DNA of 51,985 nucleotides from Geobacteraceae bacterium. GTDB taxonomy: Bacteria; Desulfobacterota; Desulfuromonadia; Desulfuromonadales; BM103. Position 1 is the stretch's first letter. Each line of letters opens with the position of its first letter. Made by a program: the position numbers and the translations under genes. Under the pieces are notes generated by a model. The model was not told where the DNA came from. It did not search any database and saw only the letters and a program-made list of their open reading frames with translations. Positions 2,120 through 51,659 of this stretch are shown here, piece after piece. The stretch lies in NCBI GenBank assembly GCA_024641085.1, contig JAHEDT010000020.1, forward strand, positions 1 through 51,985, written 5' to 3'.

Positions 2120-3792
2120 AAAACCGCGACGTGGCCCGCGCCACCTTGGAAAACCTCTACCGGATCTTCACGGTCCCCGAAGCTCCCGAATCGACCCTCG
2201 GCGAGATCGACCGGGCGATCACCGGCGATGTCACCGGCTTCCTGCAGACCCATATCGTGGCGCTCGAACGCAGTCTCGAAGAGATCGAGGGCGACTTTTC
2301 GGCCTCGGTGATCCCCGAGGAGCCGACCTTCGTCTCCGAGTACACCGAGTTCGTCAAGCAGAAGCTGGTCGCCCAGTCGGTGCATACCGCGGCTCCCGGC
2401 TTCATCGGCCACATGACCTCGGCGCTGCCTTACTTCATGCTGCCGCTCTCGCGGATCATGACGGCGCTCAATCAGAACCTGGTCAAGGTCGAGACCTCCA
2501 AGGCCTTCACGCCCCTCGAACGCCAGGTCCTGGCCATGCTCCACCGCCTCGTTTTCCAGGGTGACGACGCGTTCTACGACCGCTGGATTCACAACAGCCA
2601 GCATGCCCTCGGCGCCTTCTGTTCCGGCGGTACCATCGCCAACGTCACCGCCCTGTGGGTGGCCCGCAACCGGCTCTGTGCGCCGTCCGAATCCTTCAAC
2701 GGCATCGCCCGGGAAGGCCTGGCCCGTTCGCTCAAGCACCTCGGCTGCGACGGCCTGGCCGTGCTGGTCTCGCGGCGGGGGCACTACTCCCTGGGCAAGG
2801 CCGCCGATCTGCTCGGCATCGGCCGCGACAACCTGGTGACAGTCGAGACCGACGCGCACAACCGCATCGACCTGCAGCAGCTGCGCACCGCCTGCCGCCG
2901 CCTGGGCGATGAGAACATCCGTCCGCTGGCCCTGGTCGGGATCGCCGGCACCACCGAAACCGGCAGCGTCGACCCGCTCGTGGAGCTGGCCGACCTGGCC
3001 GGCGAACTCGGCTGTCATTTCCACGTCGATGCCGCCTGGGGCGGACCGACCCTCTTCTCGGCGCGTAACCGGCACCTGCTCGACGGCGTCGCCCGCGCCG
3101 ATTCGGTCACCCTCGATGCGCACAAGCAGCTCTACGTGCCGATGGGGGCAGGGATGGTGGTCTTCAAGGACCCCACTGCACTGTCGGCCATCGAGCACCA
3201 TGCCGCCTACATCCTGCGCCACGGGTCGAAGGACCTCGGCAGCCACACCTTGGAAGGTTCCCGCCCCGGCAAAGCCCTGCTGGTGCATGCCGGGCTGTCG
3301 ATCATCGGTCGCAAGGGCTACGAACTGCTGATCGACCTGGGGATCGAGCGGGCCGGAGCCTTCGCCGCAATGATCCGGCATCACCCCGACTTCGAAGTGA
3401 CCAGCGAACCGCAGCTTAATATCCTCACTTACCGCTATTGTCCGGCCGGCGTGCAGCAGGCGCTCCTGGAGGCCTCCGCAGAGCAGCGCAAGCAGATCAA
3501 CCTGCTGCTCGATCAGGTCAACCAGCTGCTGCAGAAGGACCAGCGCGAGGCGGGCAAGACCTTCGTTTCGAGAACCAGGCTGCGGGTCCCCCTGTCCGGG
3601 GCTGAACAGGTCACCGTGCTGCGCGTGGTCCTGGCCAACCCGCTGACCACTGACGCGATCCTGGAGTCGGTGCTCGAGGAACAGTGCACGATCGTCCTGC
3701 AGCAGGATATCCAGGCTCTGTTGCAGCAGGTCGAAGCCCGCCGCGCCGAGCTGGACCATCCGCCGGTGCTGCTCCACTCCAGGGTGAGTTGA
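2113..3792 (+). CDS. panP: PLP-dependent aspartate 1-decarboxylase, PanP type
   Basis: A group II pyridoxal-phosphate decarboxylase of 559 aa. The PLP lysine is Lys338 in LDAHKQLYVP, and the cofactor-binding aspartate is Asp306 in HVDAAWGG. CSGGTIANVTALW near residue 175 is the substrate/PLP loop. Its length and its place directly after panC match the PanP family (known from Vibrio), which makes beta-alanine from aspartate where the pyruvoyl enzyme PanD is absent. Together with panB and panC it would complete vitamin B5 synthesis. Glutamate decarboxylase activity is an alternative by homology alone, but the context favours aspartate. Confidence 0.85.
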   Translation: MLKNRDVARATLENLYRIFTVPEAPESTLGEIDRAITGDVTGFLQTHIVALERSLEEIEGDFSASVIPEEPTFVSEYTEFVKQKLVAQSVHTAAPGFIGHMTSALPYFMLPLSRIMTALNQNLVKVETSKAFTPLERQVLAMLHRLVFQGDDAFYDRWIHNSQHALGAFCSGGTIANVTALWVARNRLCAPSESFNGIAREGLARSLKHLGCDGLAVLVSRRGHYSLGKAADLLGIGRDNLVTVETDAHNRIDLQQLRTACRRLGDENIRPLALVGIAGTTETGSVDPLVELADLAGELGCHFHVDAAWGGPTLFSARNRHLLDGVARADSVTLDAHKQLYVPMGAGMVVFKDPTALSAIEHHAAYILRHGSKDLGSHTLEGSRPGKALLVHAGLSIIGRKGYELLIDLGIERAGAFAAMIRHHPDFEVTSEPQLNILTYRYCPAGVQQALLEASAEQRKQINLLLDQVNQLLQKDQREAGKTFVSRTRLRVPLSGAEQVTVLRVVLANPLTTDAILESVLEEQCTIVLQQDIQALLQQVEARRAELDHPPVLLHSRVS

Positions 3793-5873: not shown

Positions 5874-6320
5874 ATGATCGAAGAATTTGGCACCGTGATC
5901 GAACTGAAAAGCAAGCACACCGCCTTGGTTCTGTGCAAGAAGAGCAGCCTCTGTGAGCACTGCGCCACCAGCGGCAGCTGCGCGATCGGCGATGATGGTC
6001 AAATCCGCACCATCGAGGTGCAGAACACCCTCGGCGCATCGGTCGGCGACCATGTGTGTATTGCGACCACGACCAGGTCCTTCCTGCAGTCGTCCTTTCT
6101 ACTCTACATCGTGCCGCTGATTGCTTTGTTGATCGGCGCCGGCGTCGGCAAGCTGACCGGCGATAAGGTCGACACCGGCCTCGACCCGAACCTCCTGTCG
6201 GCAATTTTCGGGGTGTTTTTCATGATCGGCAGCTTCGTGCTTTTGCGGGTCGGCAGCAGCGCCCTGGAGCAGGAAAATTACATGCCGAAGATTGTCGCCA
6301 TTATTCAAGACGAAGATTAA
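5874..6320 (+). CDS. SoxR-reducing system / RseC family protein
   Basis: A 148-aa membrane protein. Four cysteines in the spacing C-x5-C-x2-C-x5-C (residues about 21-36, LCKKSSLCEHCATSGSC) precede two transmembrane helices (about 68-86 and 106-124). This is the RseC/MucC plan: a small cysteine cluster domain followed by a two-helix anchor. In enterobacteria RseC affects sigma-E signalling and SoxR reduction; in anaerobes its role is unproven but probably redox-related. Confidence 0.8.
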   Translation: MIEEFGTVIELKSKHTALVLCKKSSLCEHCATSGSCAIGDDGQIRTIEVQNTLGASVGDHVCIATTTRSFLQSSFLLYIVPLIALLIGAGVGKLTGDKVDTGLDPNLLSAIFGVFFMIGSFVLLRVGSSALEQENYMPKIVAIIQDED

Positions 6321-6368
6321 AGCTCACAGCTTACAGCTCACAGTTCACAGCTGATAACTGATAACTAG
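6321..6368. repeat. AGCT-rich spacer repeat
   Basis: Imperfect iterations of AGCTCACAG/AGCTTACAG followed by CTGATAACTGATAAC, up to the smpB start. The same vocabulary recurs at 42941-43002. It leaves smpB without an obvious ribosome-binding site. Confidence 0.4.
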
Positions 6369-12421: not shown

Positions 12422-13054
12422 ATGCCCCGCTCTTCTCGTGCGATTGCTGTCGGCTATCCGCATCATGTCACGCAACGCGGCAACAACCGTCAGACAGTCT
12501 TTTTCGACGACCATGACCGTAGCACCTACCTTGATTGCCTGAAGCAATACACTGATAAATATCAAATAGATATCTGGGCCTATTGCCTGATGCCCAATCA
12601 TATCCACCTGTTGGCTGTGCCGCATAACGAAGATGGGCTTGCGATAGGGGTAGGGCTGACCAACCAGGTGTACACCCGGTATCTGAATCGAAAGTATTTA
12701 CGCTCTGGCCGTGTGTGGCAAAATCGGTTTTTCTCATGCATTGTCGATACAGACAATTATCTTTGGACTGTTGCACGCTATATCGAAAACAACCCTGTAA
12801 AAGCCACTCTGGTCAATAGTGCGCCGGATTACCGCTGGTCGAGTGCCAAGTATCATCTGGACGGTGTTCGGGATGTTCTCATGACAAGGTCTAGTTGGCT
12901 GACTCACGAGAGAAGAGAGGTCTATCGTTCCTTTCTTGAGGAACAGGACGAGCATATGACCAATAGGATCAACCAGGCGACCCGAAGCGGAAGGCCGTTA
13001 TGTTCTATGGAAACCCTGGCGTATCTGGAAAGAAAGCTCGGCCGAAAACTTTGA
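12422..13054 (+). CDS. REP-associated tyrosine transposase (RAYT, Y1_Tnp), copy 1
   Basis: A 210-aa IS200/IS605-like HUH transposase of the RAYT group, which processes short palindromes rather than classic IS ends. Visible motifs are YPHHVTQRGNNRQTVFF near residue 12, the metal-binding H-x-H in CLMPNHIHLL near 56, and VARYIENNPVKA with the presumptive catalytic Tyr near 122. The ATG at 12422 follows GGAGGG. Palindromes of the GGGGACACTC family lie on both sides (12314-12346 and 13064-13106), and further copies lie within 5 kb. This suggests that it mobilises, or has mobilised, that family. Confidence 0.9.
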   Translation: MPRSSRAIAVGYPHHVTQRGNNRQTVFFDDHDRSTYLDCLKQYTDKYQIDIWAYCLMPNHIHLLAVPHNEDGLAIGVGLTNQVYTRYLNRKYLRSGRVWQNRFFSCIVDTDNYLWTVARYIENNPVKATLVNSAPDYRWSSAKYHLDGVRDVLMTRSSWLTHERREVYRSFLEEQDEHMTNRINQATRSGRPLCSMETLAYLERKLGRKL

Positions 13055-17545: not shown

Positions 17546-17687
17546 CCCCGCGGCTTGCCGCGGGGTCTTCAGAATTCAGTATCCAGAATCCAGAATAAAA
17601 ACTCGCTACCCCACCTGGCTGTCGGAACTTATTCCGGACTCTGGATTCCCTCAATAAGGTGCACGCCAAGCGGCAATCAATGCATGG
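17546..17687 (-). repeat. dispersed repeat C, copy 1 (inverted)
   Basis: Starts with the hairpin CCCCGCGG-CTTG-CCGCGGGG and continues with iterated CAGAATCCAGAAT units, ending near GCCAAGCGGCAATC. Its reverse complement matches 23107-23244 along almost the whole length, and parts recur at 29574-29740. The GC hairpin may serve as a terminator for the SerA-like gene. Confidence 0.7.
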
Positions 17688-23106: not shown

Positions 23107-23244
23107 CACGGATTGTTTGCCGCTTGGTTAGCCTAATTGAGAGAATCCAGAATCCGGAATAAGTTCCGACAGCAGGTGGGATCGCGAGCTTTTATTCTGG
23201 ATTCTGGATACTGAATTCAGAAGACCCCGAGGATTGCCGCGGGG
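23107..23244 (+). repeat. dispersed repeat C, copy 2
   Basis: TTGCCGCTTGG, then AGAATCCAGAATCCGGAATA, then ATTCTGGATTCTGGATACTG and GACCCCGAGGATTGCCGCGG. It is the reverse complement of 17546-17687. The CAGAATC and GATTCTG arms can fold back on each other. Confidence 0.7.
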
Positions 23245-27535: not shown

Positions 27536-27652
27536 CTGCCCAGGCCAGGCGTCAGGTACGAGGTGCGGGTGCAAGGTGTGACCAGGCCAATCTGAGGCCT
27601 TTTAAAGCTTTTTCGCGCCACACGCCACACGCCACGCGCTACGCAGTACTCA
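27536..27652. repeat. spacer hairpin repeat
   Basis: Left arm of CGAGGTGCGGGTGCAAGGTG-like units, core GGCCTTTTAAAGC, right arm CGCCACACGCCACACGCC. It is a typical member of the hairpin family with repetitive arms around a TTTTAAA core. Confidence 0.55.
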
Positions 27653-28283: not shown

Positions 28284-28380
28284 GCGCGTGGCGCATGGTG
28301 TGTGGCGTGTGGCGTGAACAAGCTTTTAAGAGGCTTTGCATCTGACTGTTCGCGCTTCTCGTCTCGCACTTCGCGCCTCA
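28284..28380. repeat. spacer hairpin repeat
   Basis: Left arm GCGTGGCGCATGGTGTGTGG, core AGCTTTTAAGAGGC, right arm TCGTCTCGCACTTCGCGCC. It ends exactly where the 36-bp GGGGTCAGG element begins. Confidence 0.55.
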
Positions 28381-29573: not shown

Positions 29574-29740
29574 ATCGGTTGCCGCTTGGTTCACGCCTTG
29601 TTGTGTGAACCCGGTATCCAGAATCCAGAATTCAGAATCCAGAATAAATCATGAAAACCAGAAAGGGTTTTTTCTGACTACTGACTACTGACTACTGAAT
29701 TCTGGGTTCTGGATCCTTCGCGTCAAGCGAGGGGGTCTTT
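29574..29740. repeat. dispersed repeat C-related block
   Basis: GTTGCCGCTTGG, then TATCCAGAATCCAGAATTCA, a triple GACTACT run, GAATTCTGGGTTCTGGATCC and GCGTCAAGCGAGGGGG. It fills most of the 303-bp gap between the DRTGG gene and the oxidoreductase; nothing else is seen there. Confidence 0.6.
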
Positions 29741-42940: not shown

Positions 42941-43002
42941 GAAAGCTGTCAGCTGTAAGCTGTAAGCTGCTTGATAGCCTGTAAGTTTCCAGCTTGTTAT
43001 AA
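42941..43002. repeat. AGCTGTAAG spacer repeat
   Basis: AGCTGTCAGCTGTAAGCTGT iterations on the left; CTGTAAGTTTCCAGCTTG on the right. It resembles 6321-6368. Confidence 0.45.
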
Positions 43003-44383: not shown

Positions 44384-45319
44384 ATGGCACGACCACTGCG
44401 CATTGAGTTTCCCGGTGCATTTCATCATGTCATGTCGCGGGGCAACGAGAAACAGGATATCTATCGCACCCGTCAAGATCGCGTAAAATTTCTCGACTAC
44501 CTCGAATCGGCAACGGTCCGGTACGCTGCGGTCATCCACTGTTACTGCCTGATGGACAATCACTACCATTTGCTGATCGAAACTCCGTCCGGAAATCTCG
44601 CCCAGATCATGCGGCACATCAACGGTGCCTATACGAGCTATTTTAACACGCGACACTGTCGGGCCGGACACTTGTTCCAGGGACGATACCGGTCTGTTCT
44701 CGTCGATGTCGACGCCTATTGCCTGGCCTTGTCACGCTATATACACCGCAACCCGGTGAGGGCGGAGTTCTCAGGAAGCCCGGCTGACTATGAGTGGAGC
44801 AGTTACCAAGCTTATCTGGGCGGGAAAGTCGCTCCGCAATGGCTGCAGACCGGCTTTTTACTCGCCCTGATTGGTGATGGCCACGGTGACCGCAAGAGCT
44901 ACCGGGAGTATGTCGAGAGTGATGATGTAATTTCTGATGAACAATATGACAATATACTGAATTCAAGGGCAATTATAGGTCGAAAAACATTCATTGAAGA
45001 GGTCAGGAGGGACTGTCTGGCGACGCGTACAAACAGTCGCGATCTGCCGGCCGCCAGGGAGTTGATGCGGCGTCCGAAAATCCAGCAGATCTTTGAGGCC
45101 GTGGCCTGCGAGATCAGTGTGGATCATCGTCTGGCGAAGAAGATGACCATATATCTTTGTCACCATTTCAGTGGTTGCACTTTAAAGGAGATCGGCACCT
45201 ATTTCGGGGTCGGCGAGTCTGCCGTCTCTGAGAACAGCAACCGGTTCGCAATGATCCTCTACCAGGACCAGCGCCTTGCGGAAACGGTCGCCGGGCTGCT
45301 TGCGGAACTAAAAATGTGA
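44384..45319 (+). CDS. REP-associated tyrosine transposase (RAYT), copy 2, with DnaA-like C-terminus
   Basis: A 311-aa HUH transposase. Motifs: MARPLRIEFPGAFHHVMSRG, the metal-binding H-x-H in CLMDNHYHLLIETP (near residue 53), and LSRYIHRNPVRAEF with the catalytic Tyr near 122. A long C-terminal extension ends in a helix-turn-helix resembling DnaA domain IV (KKMTIYLCHHFSGCTLKEIG then YFGVGESAVS). Its termini are inverted GGGGTCAGG elements, and its TGA stop lies inside the right one. It represents a different subfamily from the RAYT at 12422. The ATG follows GAGGAGGG. Confidence 0.92.
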   Translation: MARPLRIEFPGAFHHVMSRGNEKQDIYRTRQDRVKFLDYLESATVRYAAVIHCYCLMDNHYHLLIETPSGNLAQIMRHINGAYTSYFNTRHCRAGHLFQGRYRSVLVDVDAYCLALSRYIHRNPVRAEFSGSPADYEWSSYQAYLGGKVAPQWLQTGFLLALIGDGHGDRKSYREYVESDDVISDEQYDNILNSRAIIGRKTFIEEVRRDCLATRTNSRDLPAARELMRRPKIQQIFEAVACEISVDHRLAKKMTIYLCHHFSGCTLKEIGTYFGVGESAVSENSNRFAMILYQDQRLAETVAGLLAELKM

Positions 45320-49317: not shown

Positions 49318-49694
49318 TGGCACAGCCACCGGTCATTCGATGATTTGATTTGCGGCCAGGGATCTGCATGGCCGCCTTATGAAGGGGGGTATGGGTTAAC
49401 GACGTACCGACAAGAAAGATCTCCGCAGGTGATGCAATGCCGCTTAGGCGGCAATGACGCGCCGTGGTTTTGAGGGGAACCTTTGGCGCCAGGAGGGGAA
49501 TGCGATGTTATGCAATGCAAGGAGGGCTGCGCGATCTTTCTACCCCATTTTGATATGTCTCATTCTGTTGAGGCACTGTTATGGCCCGCCCGCACCGGCG
49601 GGCCAATTTTTCATGACTGGGCTATGGATCGCAGAGCCGCCAAGCCCGCCCAGAGAACCTTAAGGACGGTTGGTTTTTGACAAAAAACTATGTC
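49318..49694. other. gene-poor spacer with terminator
   Basis: Contains structured-looking text (TGCCGCTTAGGCGGCA near 49439-49454) and a strong terminator, TGGCCCGCC (49582-49590) with GGCGGGCCA (49597-49605), then ATTTTT. A 52-codon frame from ATG 49505, with a good GGAGGGG site, encodes a cysteine-rich hydrophobic stretch but ends without any family resemblance; I do not call it. Confidence 0.45.
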
Positions 49695-50010
49695 TGCTTT
49701 TCTCAATTTCCTCAGCGCCTCGAATGAGAGAAGCGAACAGGTGTTACAATTTGTTTAACGCGGAGGCACAGGGCGCACAGAGAAAAACTTAAAGTTGCCA
49801 TTTCATTTGTAACAAAATAATAATTGCTTTTCTCAGTGTCCTCAGCGCCTCGAGTGAGCAAAGCGAACGGGCGTTACAACTTATTTAATGTGGAGGCACA
49901 GGGCGCACAGAGAAAACCTTGAGGCTGCTGTTCCATTTATAAAAAAAGGATGAATGCATTCCTCAGTGTCCTCAGCATATTGAGTGAACGAAACAAACTG
50001 GCGTGGCCAC
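49695..50010. repeat. 130-bp tandem repeat, about 2.4 units
   Basis: Units start at 49695, 49825 and 49955, exactly 130 bp apart. Each begins with TGCTTTTCTCA-like text, then TCCTCAGCGCCTCGA, AAGCGAAC and, in the first two, GGAGGCACAGGGCGCACAGA. Unit 3 breaks off after about 55 bp. Mismatches accumulate towards unit 3. The remainder to 50153 shows no gene. Confidence 0.75.
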
Positions 50011-50153: not shown

Positions 50154-51041
50154 ATGATCGACTTCCATTCCCACATTCTGCCGGCCCTCGACGACGGCGC
50201 CGTCACGATTGACGATTCCATCGCCATGGCGAGAGAGCTGGCGGCGTTCGGTTACCAGAAAGTCTGCTGTACACCGCACTGCATCAAGGGCTACTACGAC
50301 CTCACCCCGCAGAAGGTGCGCGAAGCGACGCTGATGCTGCAGGCCGACCTCGACAACGCCGATATCCACCTGGAACTCTTGCCGGGCATGGAATACATGC
50401 TCGACGAGTTCTTCTCGGAATTTATCGACGACCTCCAGCCCCTCGGCGACACCCGGCTGATCCTCTGCGAGGCCCCGCCCAAGGCCCACCCCGGGGTTGT
50501 CCGTGACGGACTCGAACTCATCATCAAACAGGGCTTCGTGCCGCTGATCGCGCATCCTGAACGAACGAAACATTTCTATGAAATTTTGACGAAGCGCGAA
50601 GCACGAAGCGAGAAGTTGGACCAGGCCTTGAGTTTCGAAGGGTATGGCGCACACTATCCCGATGAGAAACCCAAATCATTTTTAAAGAGATTGTTCGCGC
50701 CTCGCACGTCAGGCTTCGAACCTCGCAAAGACAACGTCCCGATGCTTGCCCAGAAGGCGGAACTCCCCGAAGGGATTGCCTTCCAGGCTAATCTCGGCAG
50801 CTTCACCGGCTACTACGGCGAAAGCGTGCAGCGCAAGGCCTATGAACTCCTCAAAATGGGCGCCTACACCGCCATCGCCAGTGACCTCCATGATAGCAGC
50901 GGGGCAGACAAAATCCTGGACCGCGACAAGATCGACACCAACCCGCTGCTGCAGAAACTCTCTGCGTTCAATGGTGTGACGACGGGTCTTTTCACCGCCT
51001 CTGGCCGAGATGGCGGCGGAGGGCAGGGGGAGCTTTTTTAA
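50154..51041 (+). CDS. CpsB/CapC-like PHP-domain tyrosine phosphatase with an in-frame insertion
   Basis: A 295-aa PHP metallohydrolase of the CpsB/CapC/YwqE type, which dephosphorylates the tyrosine kinase controlling polysaccharide export. Metal motifs: IDFHSHILPALDDGA (residues 2-16), TPHCIKGYY, LLPGMEYML, PLIAHPERT and a C-terminal SDLHDS. Typical members are about 250 aa. The excess is a basic, low-complexity stretch at about residues 145-195, encoded by 50585-50740, between HPERT and QANLGSFTGYYG. That DNA has the features of the spacer hairpins seen elsewhere in the window. The ATG at 50154 fits the family start; the ribosome-binding site is poor. Confidence 0.85.
   Translation: MIDFHSHILPALDDGAVTIDDSIAMARELAAFGYQKVCCTPHCIKGYYDLTPQKVREATLMLQADLDNADIHLELLPGMEYMLDEFFSEFIDDLQPLGDTRLILCEAPPKAHPGVVRDGLELIIKQGFVPLIAHPERTKHFYEILTKREARSEKLDQALSFEGYGAHYPDEKPKSFLKRLFAPRTSGFEPRKDNVPMLAQKAELPEGIAFQANLGSFTGYYGESVQRKAYELLKMGAYTAIASDLHDSSGADKILDRDKIDTNPLLQKLSAFNGVTTGLFTASGRDGGGGQGELF
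50585..50740. repeat. spacer hairpin repeat inside the CpsB-like gene
   Basis: Left arm GAAGCGCGAAGCACGAAGCG, core CATTTTTAAAGAG near 50678-50690, right arm TCGCGCCTCGCACGTCAGGC and TTCGAACCTCGC. It keeps the reading frame open. Confidence 0.5.
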
Positions 51042-51187: not shown

Positions 51188-51400
51188 ATGCTCGCTATTC
51201 GTTTGGAAAAAGATTTAGAACAGGAAATTGATCTGCTGGCCAAATCTAAAGGCAGCAATCGGAGCGCAGTCGTGCGTGAAGCGATCGTGCGTTACCTGGA
51301 AGACAATGAAGATCTTGAGTTAGCAAAGCAGGCTCTTGCCGAGACTCGCAGCAGTAAATCTCTCAAAGATTTGAGGAAAGACCTTGGCTTGGACAGTTGA
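51188..51400 (+). CDS. ribbon-helix-helix antitoxin (RelB/ParD-like)
   Basis: A 70-aa protein. LAIRLEKDLEQEIDLLAKSK and NRSAVVREAIVRYLE form a ribbon-helix-helix DNA-binding fold; the acidic-then-basic tail (LELAKQALAETRSSKSLKDL) would wrap the toxin. The ATG at 51188 follows GGAGG; an earlier in-frame ATG lies in the operator. It overlaps the toxin gene by 17 nt, so the two are translationally coupled. Confidence 0.9.
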   Translation: MLAIRLEKDLEQEIDLLAKSKGSNRSAVVREAIVRYLEDNEDLELAKQALAETRSSKSLKDLRKDLGLDS

Positions 51401-51659
51401 GGTCAGTGATTTTGCCGAGAAACAACTGCGCAAGCTCGATCAACCTATACAAAAAAGGCTTATCGATTGGCTTGAGGATCGTCTTGAAGGTTGCAAGAAC
51501 CCCAGACATTTTGGAGAACCCCTGCGAGGAGAATTGGCTGGCCTATGGCGTTACCGAATTGGGGACTACAGGGTGATTTGTGAAATACAGGATCAACGGT
51601 TGGTTGTTTTGGCCTTAGCGGTTGGACATCGTAGAGAGATTTATCTGCGGAGCAAATAA
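51384..51659 (+). CDS. RelE/ParE-family toxin
   Basis: A 91-aa RelE-fold protein. AEKQLRKLDQPIQKRLIDWL forms the N-terminal helices; GLWRYRIGDYRVICEI and LALAVGHRREIY are the beta-sheet core with basic and Tyr residues typical of ribosome-dependent mRNA interferases of the RelE type. The start is TTG 51384, inside the antitoxin frame. It forms a type II toxin-antitoxin module with the gene before it. Confidence 0.9.
   Translation: MAWTVEVSDFAEKQLRKLDQPIQKRLIDWLEDRLEGCKNPRHFGEPLRGELAGLWRYRIGDYRVICEIQDQRLVVLALAVGHRREIYLRSK

Follow-up and report, generated by a model that had tools for sequence, protein, structure and literature searches.

The window (the whole stretch of 51,985 nucleotides analyzed here, from the genome of a Geobacteraceae bacterium) carries near its end an open reading frame whose product has 295 amino acids, counted from the ATG at position 50154 (Table 1). 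The product matched PF19567 (CpsB/CapC) with 103.6 bits, above the curated cutoff of 27, and its solved relatives were YwqE (3qy6) and CpsB (2wjd). By these matches it is a CpsB/CapC-like phosphatase, as had been predicted originally, and metal-dependent phosphotyrosine phosphatase activity is predicted for it. The full PHP core, the HPER region, and the downstream Asp/His motifs of YwqE and CpsB are kept, whereas an extra loop of 72 residues follows HPER, which ends at residue 137, and runs up to FQANLGSF, which starts at residue 210. YwqE has approximately 50 residues fewer between the two motifs, and the reading frame is intact, which bears out the earlier claim of an extra in-frame segment. 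An AlphaFold2 model (34 sequences) had a mean pLDDT of 87.5 overall and of about 50 at residues 161 to 200, so the suggestion that the insert might be a surface loop agreed with a poorly ordered loop in the model. Residues 139 to 161, KREARSEK among them, were modeled as a helix. Upstream of the gene, at 49676 to 49935, lie two tandem 130-bp repeats that are 80% alike and have CCTCAGCGCCTCG...GCGGAGGCACAGGGCGCACAGAG motifs, followed by what can be seen as part of another copy. Downstream, the ParE-type toxin gene is preceded by a small open reading frame (about 51189 to 51400) of antitoxin-like appearance. Both of the Y1_Tnp genes found in this genome fall within the window.

Table 1. Features of the window discussed in the text
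Feature	Coordinates	Strand	Basis or remark
Y1_Tnp (RAYT-type) gene, first	12464-12793	+	Lies among inverted GGGGACACTC repeats that are probably its own REPs
Spacer 7-nt array, word CGCCACA	27616-27652		Lag-7 score 17.0; the cpsB loop of G019 matches here with its right arm
Spacer 7-nt array, word GTGTGGC	28284-28316		Lag-7 score 13.0
Y1_Tnp (RAYT-type) gene, second	44426-44752	+	Profile match
CpsB/CapC-like PHP phosphatase gene	50154-51041	+	Open frame; Pfam PF19567; YwqE and CpsB of the PDB
Variable loop, residues 138-209, HPER to FQANLGSF	50565-50780	+	Alignment of 30 homologues; AlphaFold2
7-nt tandem array CGAAGCG CGAAGCA CGAAGCG AGAAG, encoding KREARSEK	50590-50615	+	Lag-7 score 11.2
FLKRLF motif codons, the originally predicted core; protein motif, not repeat core	50679-50696	+	Pattern in 11/11 members of f1
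Possible degraded right-hand repeat TTCGCGCCTCGCACG...CTTCGAACCTCGC	50694-50730	+	Repeat search; alone not significant
ParE-type toxin gene	51384-51659	+	PF05016

The original prediction read 50585 to 50740 as a spacer hairpin, two arms around a core, that had been inserted whole and in frame into the cpsB gene of this lineage. The three DNA strings named in it are all present in that segment, and a repeat search in the loop DNA returned inverted arms of 25 nucleotides with 72% complementarity. However, the palindrome was at the level of chance. The inverted-repeat score of the segment (8.5) was reached by 184 of 1,500 random coding 156-mers from the sampled DNA of this genome, and P was 0.166 against 300 synonymous recodings and 0.173 against 300 codon permutations. 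Folded as single-stranded DNA, 50588 to 50730 was no better than its shuffles (z, +0.24). The same held for the spacer hairpins with which the segment had been compared, all three of which folded at shuffle level (z, +0.14, −1.20, and +0.32). After these three tests, the idea of an inverted repeat in the window copy was dropped.

Searches with the window protein across 136 genomes of the order gave a match in 70 of them, and the 30 best loci read were aligned. A loop of 40 to 80 residues occupied the HPER-FQANLGSF site in 29 of these homologues, and the single short-loop homologue (L038) had 19 residues there. In a second set of 33 aligned sequences, chosen from 80 named records and overlapping the first set in that four of the records apparently repeat genomes already included, 23 rows (L117 to L139) had the loop; these were from Desulfuromonadales, Desulfobacterales, Chlorobi, Syntrophaceae, Nitrospirae, and other groups. 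The loop was absent from the remaining 10 rows (Bacteroidetes, Firmicutes, and others). The center of the loop, placed after the HPER strand, fitted the pattern [FW][LFW][KR][KR][LF][LFW] in all 11 members of the family of the window protein (f1), which itself has FLKRLF; outside f1, similar hydrophobic-basic stretches were judged by eye to be present in many, but not all, homologues. The supposed core of the hairpin, TTTTTAAA at 50679 to 50687, encodes the FLK of this motif. On the evidence of the alignments the loop is old and not a fresh insertion, and the single insertion of a whole hairpin is not supported, in view of both this distribution and a core that is a motif common to the family. 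Conservation of the same 50 residues in distant CpsB proteins had been named as evidence that would refute the insertion of a spacer repeat; it was found for the position and partly for the motif, but not for the remaining residues. A role of FLKRLF in binding the membrane or a kinase tail is a guess from composition.

The window copy has 3.7 tandem 7-nucleotide units at 50590 to 50615, that is, three or more units beyond chance. The lag-7 score of this array was reached by 3 of 1,500 random coding 156-mers from the sample of the same genome (G000), and lag 7 in the loop gave P values of 0.017 against 300 synonymous recodings (p_syn) and 0.003 against 300 codon permutations (p_perm). By per-gene lag-7 maximum, cpsB (11.2) ranked 5th among the 373 genes of the G000 sample, over which the control lags peaked at 9.8 (10.4 for lag 14). 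The arrays ranking above it were in two open reading frames without a Pfam match, ahead of the first residue matched by Pfam in a glycyl-tRNA synthetase beta chain, and, in the fourth case, at the end of a 211-amino-acid open reading frame on C104, which we take to be endonuclease V. Given the placement of these four higher-ranked arrays, the G000 sample has a single array that is well within a conserved, Pfam-matched gene, namely that of cpsB. Gene calls were plain longest-ORF picks, and start positions are thus unsure.

Outside the gene, the best match in the window genome was C104:39360-39387 (93% over 28 nucleotides; E, 8e-5), where the array partly overlaps the end of the 211-amino-acid open reading frame. 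The expected noncoding copies were represented by one good match, and this one is partly over coding DNA. Among the 11 genomes searched, the window loop had one outside match in its own genome and one in G004 at an E value of ≤0.1. Exact matches of CGAAGCRCGAAGCR in the window genome were confined to cpsB (two) and C104 (one), and with one mismatch there were 14 matches versus 11 for the reversed control. When the best matches to the sampled G000 spacers were listed, cpsB was not among the 22 genes listed. Of the spacers at 27536, 28284, and 37341, for which a shared plan and vocabulary had been proposed, the first two have the 7-nucleotide periodicity and the third had a weaker lag-7 score (8.0); the shared vocabulary was not recovered, as those spacers use other 7-mers. 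A complete lack of similarity to spacer repeats, the second outcome named as refuting the prediction, was not what we found, given the C104 match and the 7-nucleotide periodicity. Other 7-nucleotide arrays of the window, at 6313 to 6366, 17568 to 17596, 23194 to 23222, 29616 to 29712, and 42944 to 42969, are mostly in spacers and have quite different words (CAGAATT, AGCTGTA, and CTGACTA types). Because the word is rare in this genome, the genome matches are few, and cpsB is not listed among the best spacer matches, a repeat origin of the window copy is moderately supported, with most of the weight coming from relatives.

Lag-7 segments were counted with one threshold for all lags, and lags 4, 5, 8, 10, 11, and 13 served as controls. 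We found 42 in the sample of G014 (348 kb; ≤2 at each control lag) and 17 in the sample of G000 together with the window (445 kb; ≤2 at control lags; one of the 17 was a run of N that scored at other lags too), densities that are not genome averages because both samples were picked partly around earlier matches. In G017 (240 kb) there were 15, against ≤3 at control lags. This genome also has very long 7-nucleotide arrays of the CTGGGAG and AACCAGT types, at L229:7274-7483 (178 nucleotides) and L233:15544-15764 (221 nucleotides), which would be useful for watching array turnover.

Within f1, 8 of the 11 loops demonstrated a lag-7 excess (L017 to L019, L021 to L023, L026, and L027; p_perm, ≤0.007; p_syn, ≤0.027), L020 was borderline (0.143 and 0.033, respectively), and L024 and L025 had no excess. 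The loops of other families showed it in 2 of 19 cases (L033 and L034). An inverted repeat above both controls was present in 2 of all 30 loops (L019 and L023). Lag 7 was scored in 22 of the 23 named records, L126 being left out: L117 and L120, the apparent counterparts of L018 and L026, had the excess. From L121 on, both lag-7 controls were passed at 0.03 by none of the 18 records scored. The words of the loops differed, with GAAGCRC in the window, GCCACGY in G019, GGGACGC in G014, and ACCACGA in G017 and G004, and the second cpsB gene of G017 had no heptad signal (lag-7 score, 4). In a tree of the loop-free proteins, where 3 of the 13 forks were firm, G017a, G009, and G017b grouped together (94/91) despite three different loops. 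The G019 loop, when tested for a second match, matched only itself in its own genome, and the words are thus not strictly species specific; it matched eight places of G000, among them 27611 to 27642 of the window. The idea that the loop of each species uses the word of its own spacers held for G014 and weakly for G000 and G017 and failed for G019.

Judged from its DNA, G014 is the decisive case. Its cpsB loop had 60 own-genome matches at an E value of ≤0.1 (itself counted), next to 23 for G017, 17 for G004, 10 for G019, 5 for G000, 4 for G009, and 3 for G011, and among 295 sampled genes cpsB was at the top for spacer BLAST hits (97) and second by per-gene lag-7 maximum. The loop segment folds as a long hairpin (z, −6.02). 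Read side by side, the spacer elements of this genome follow a common plan, (GGGACGC)n-GAAAACC-variable center-GGTTTTCGCG-(TCCCGCG)n. The 54-nucleotide center of the loop recurs at 49 of 54 bases directly after the cpsB stop, and the next best match to it in the 348-kb sample had an E value of 0.46. In the cpsB frame this copy reads FFKRLWPFAS and so encodes a version of the protein motif, from which it seems that a cpsB gene was the source and the adjoining DNA the recipient; the copy falls in the upstream extension of the next open reading frame and is probably spacer. We do not adopt the idea that the loop center descends from a spacer element, as within the 348-kb sample the G014 center has its sole match in the copy next to cpsB and the motif is common to cpsB of genera without a heptad excess (L024 and L025), although a gapped match of the G014 loop (75% over 97 nucleotides at C18:108938) would fit such an origin. 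Heptads also occur in frame in unrelated genes of G014: in dTDP-glucose dehydratase (L082:4509-4538), which is 8 residues longer there than 1g1a, in GDP-mannose dehydratase (L080:17997-18024), 3 residues longer than 1db3, at two places in a ketoacyl synthase (L094:10086-10387), and in the tail of RNase R. MnmA, DUF2062, and MqnA-type proteins likewise have heptads at their ends. The same heptad half-element ends approximately 20 nucleotides before the cpsB start in G014 (L019, about 2420 to 2444, minus strand) and in G017 (L229:10364-10406), where a ribosome-binding site is expected.

From the observed age of the loop, its disorder in the model, the 7-nucleotide excess, and the spacer matches of G014, we consider it probable that the loop is an old feature of a clade of CpsB/CapC-like PHP phosphatases, disordered and exposed at the surface, and that in f1 it has become a tolerated site for heptads like those in spacers. 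What had been predicted as a spacer repeat becoming coding in frame is accordingly well supported at the level of the family, by the genome matches, spacer hits, and other genes of G014, while the insertion of a single hairpin is not. That latter event is very improbable, even though the G014 loop does resemble a complete hairpin element: the loop and its motif are present across the order, no motif-bearing allele without the loop was found, and the left array lies about 64 nucleotides from the supposed core, unlike the compact spacer elements, in addition to the chance-level palindrome in the window copy. Transport by a mobile palindromic element that targets cpsB and other genes, be it a MITE or a REP mobilized by a RAYT/Y1 transposase, is improbable as well. 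Y1_Tnp genes were found in four of six genomes searched, with 14 in the repeat-richest, G014, and a near-copy of the loop center adjoins cpsB there; yet G004 and G019 have heptad loops without a Y1_Tnp match, the first RAYT gene of the window is flanked by GGGGACACTC repeats instead, and words and centers vary, leaving no fixed sequence. RAYT mobilization of the heptads was not supported, with a heptad array at 1 of the 10 Y1_Tnp loci read and none adjacent to the gene.

It is also unlikely, if less remotely so, that the loop is simply a fast-evolving, charged, helix-forming segment using GAA/GCG/CGA codons, with no tie to spacer repeats. The rarity of the word in the window genome, an E value of only 8e-5 for the best outside match, a modest p_syn of 0.017, and the modeling of the array stretch within a helix would fit such a coincidence. 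Against it, the 7-nucleotide excess occurs at the same place in seven other f1 loops, and neither the random coding segments (3 of 1,500) nor the control lags over the 373 genes (≤9.8, or 10.4 for lag 14, versus 11.2) readily match the window score.

If the loop is a tolerated heptad site, the heptads would flank an older basic-aromatic motif (FLKRLF in the window) that belongs to the protein, and the words would be replaced more quickly than the enzyme evolves; in the same loop, near relatives have different heptads. By simple arithmetic, a 7-mer repeat should give the same cycle of seven residues whichever of a strand's three frames is read, and a stop-free word would thus be open in every frame; as long as the loop is unfolded, only the total length modulo 3 would then be constrained. 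A disordered loop may tolerate additional residues, presumably at no functional cost. Heptads may arrive and change by slippage, template switching, or recombination between arrays, and in G014 such a process seems to have carried the loop center out into the adjoining spacer. A bolder version, which we put forward tentatively and think doubtful as a whole, makes the loop a port through which coding and spacer DNA exchange sequence: arrays on both sides of the FFKKFWPF motif would let segments be rewritten or copied by recombination, words would outpace the enzyme, and the copy after the G014 cpsB gene would be a coding segment exported to a spacer. Should the tolerated-site reading be correct, noncoding repeats would feed proteins raw sequence repeatedly at one permissive site, for which a 7-nucleotide unit is well suited, as the three frames of a strand give one peptide cycle. 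Orthologues with different words in one loop would make repeat entry, turnover, and motif protection measurable, and annotators should not take such loops for domains.

In the literature consulted, mostly open access, we did not find heptads described for the loops of cpsB. Palindromic elements of Rickettsia, as summarized in a review (PMC10969869), have been found in frame within genes, and the present repeats resemble them in being spacer-type repeats in frame in unrelated genes, with an encoded segment thought to be compatible with folding. In contrast, the Rickettsia elements are palindromic families of approximately 150 bp with conserved peptides, whereas here words and centers vary between copies and species, with no conserved sequence family, element, or peptide; a significant palindrome was seen only in G014 (z, −6.02) and not in the window copy (z, +0.24; 184 of 1,500). 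Among long simple repeats, those of seven nucleotides are the most common in the majority of prokaryote genomes, according to work cited in the introduction of a study of Beggiatoaceae (MacGregor 2015, PMC4679880). The TAACTGA direct repeats of that study are likewise heptamer arrays, mostly in spacers with some in open reading frames, and give one peptide cycle per strand. They differ in having a single word and in that the copies in open reading frames are mostly at protein ends, and paired inverted arms do not feature in the portion of that description drawn on here. A close likeness is also seen to the heptanucleotide elements of Geobacter metallireducens (GGGACCG, four times), which are reported from 49 places between and within genes and for which a function as regulatory RNA elements has been proposed (Aklujkar et al. 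2009, PMC2700814). Both are tandem 7-mers of about four units, from the same broad bacterial group, located between and inside genes, as we observed in the G014 and G000 samples. The consensus of those elements, GGACCGG, is not that of the window, where the word is GAAGCRC, and, judging from the published account of a single consensus in G. metallireducens, the present system differs in that words vary between species and within genomes and that one orthologous loop has been hit repeatedly around a conserved motif.
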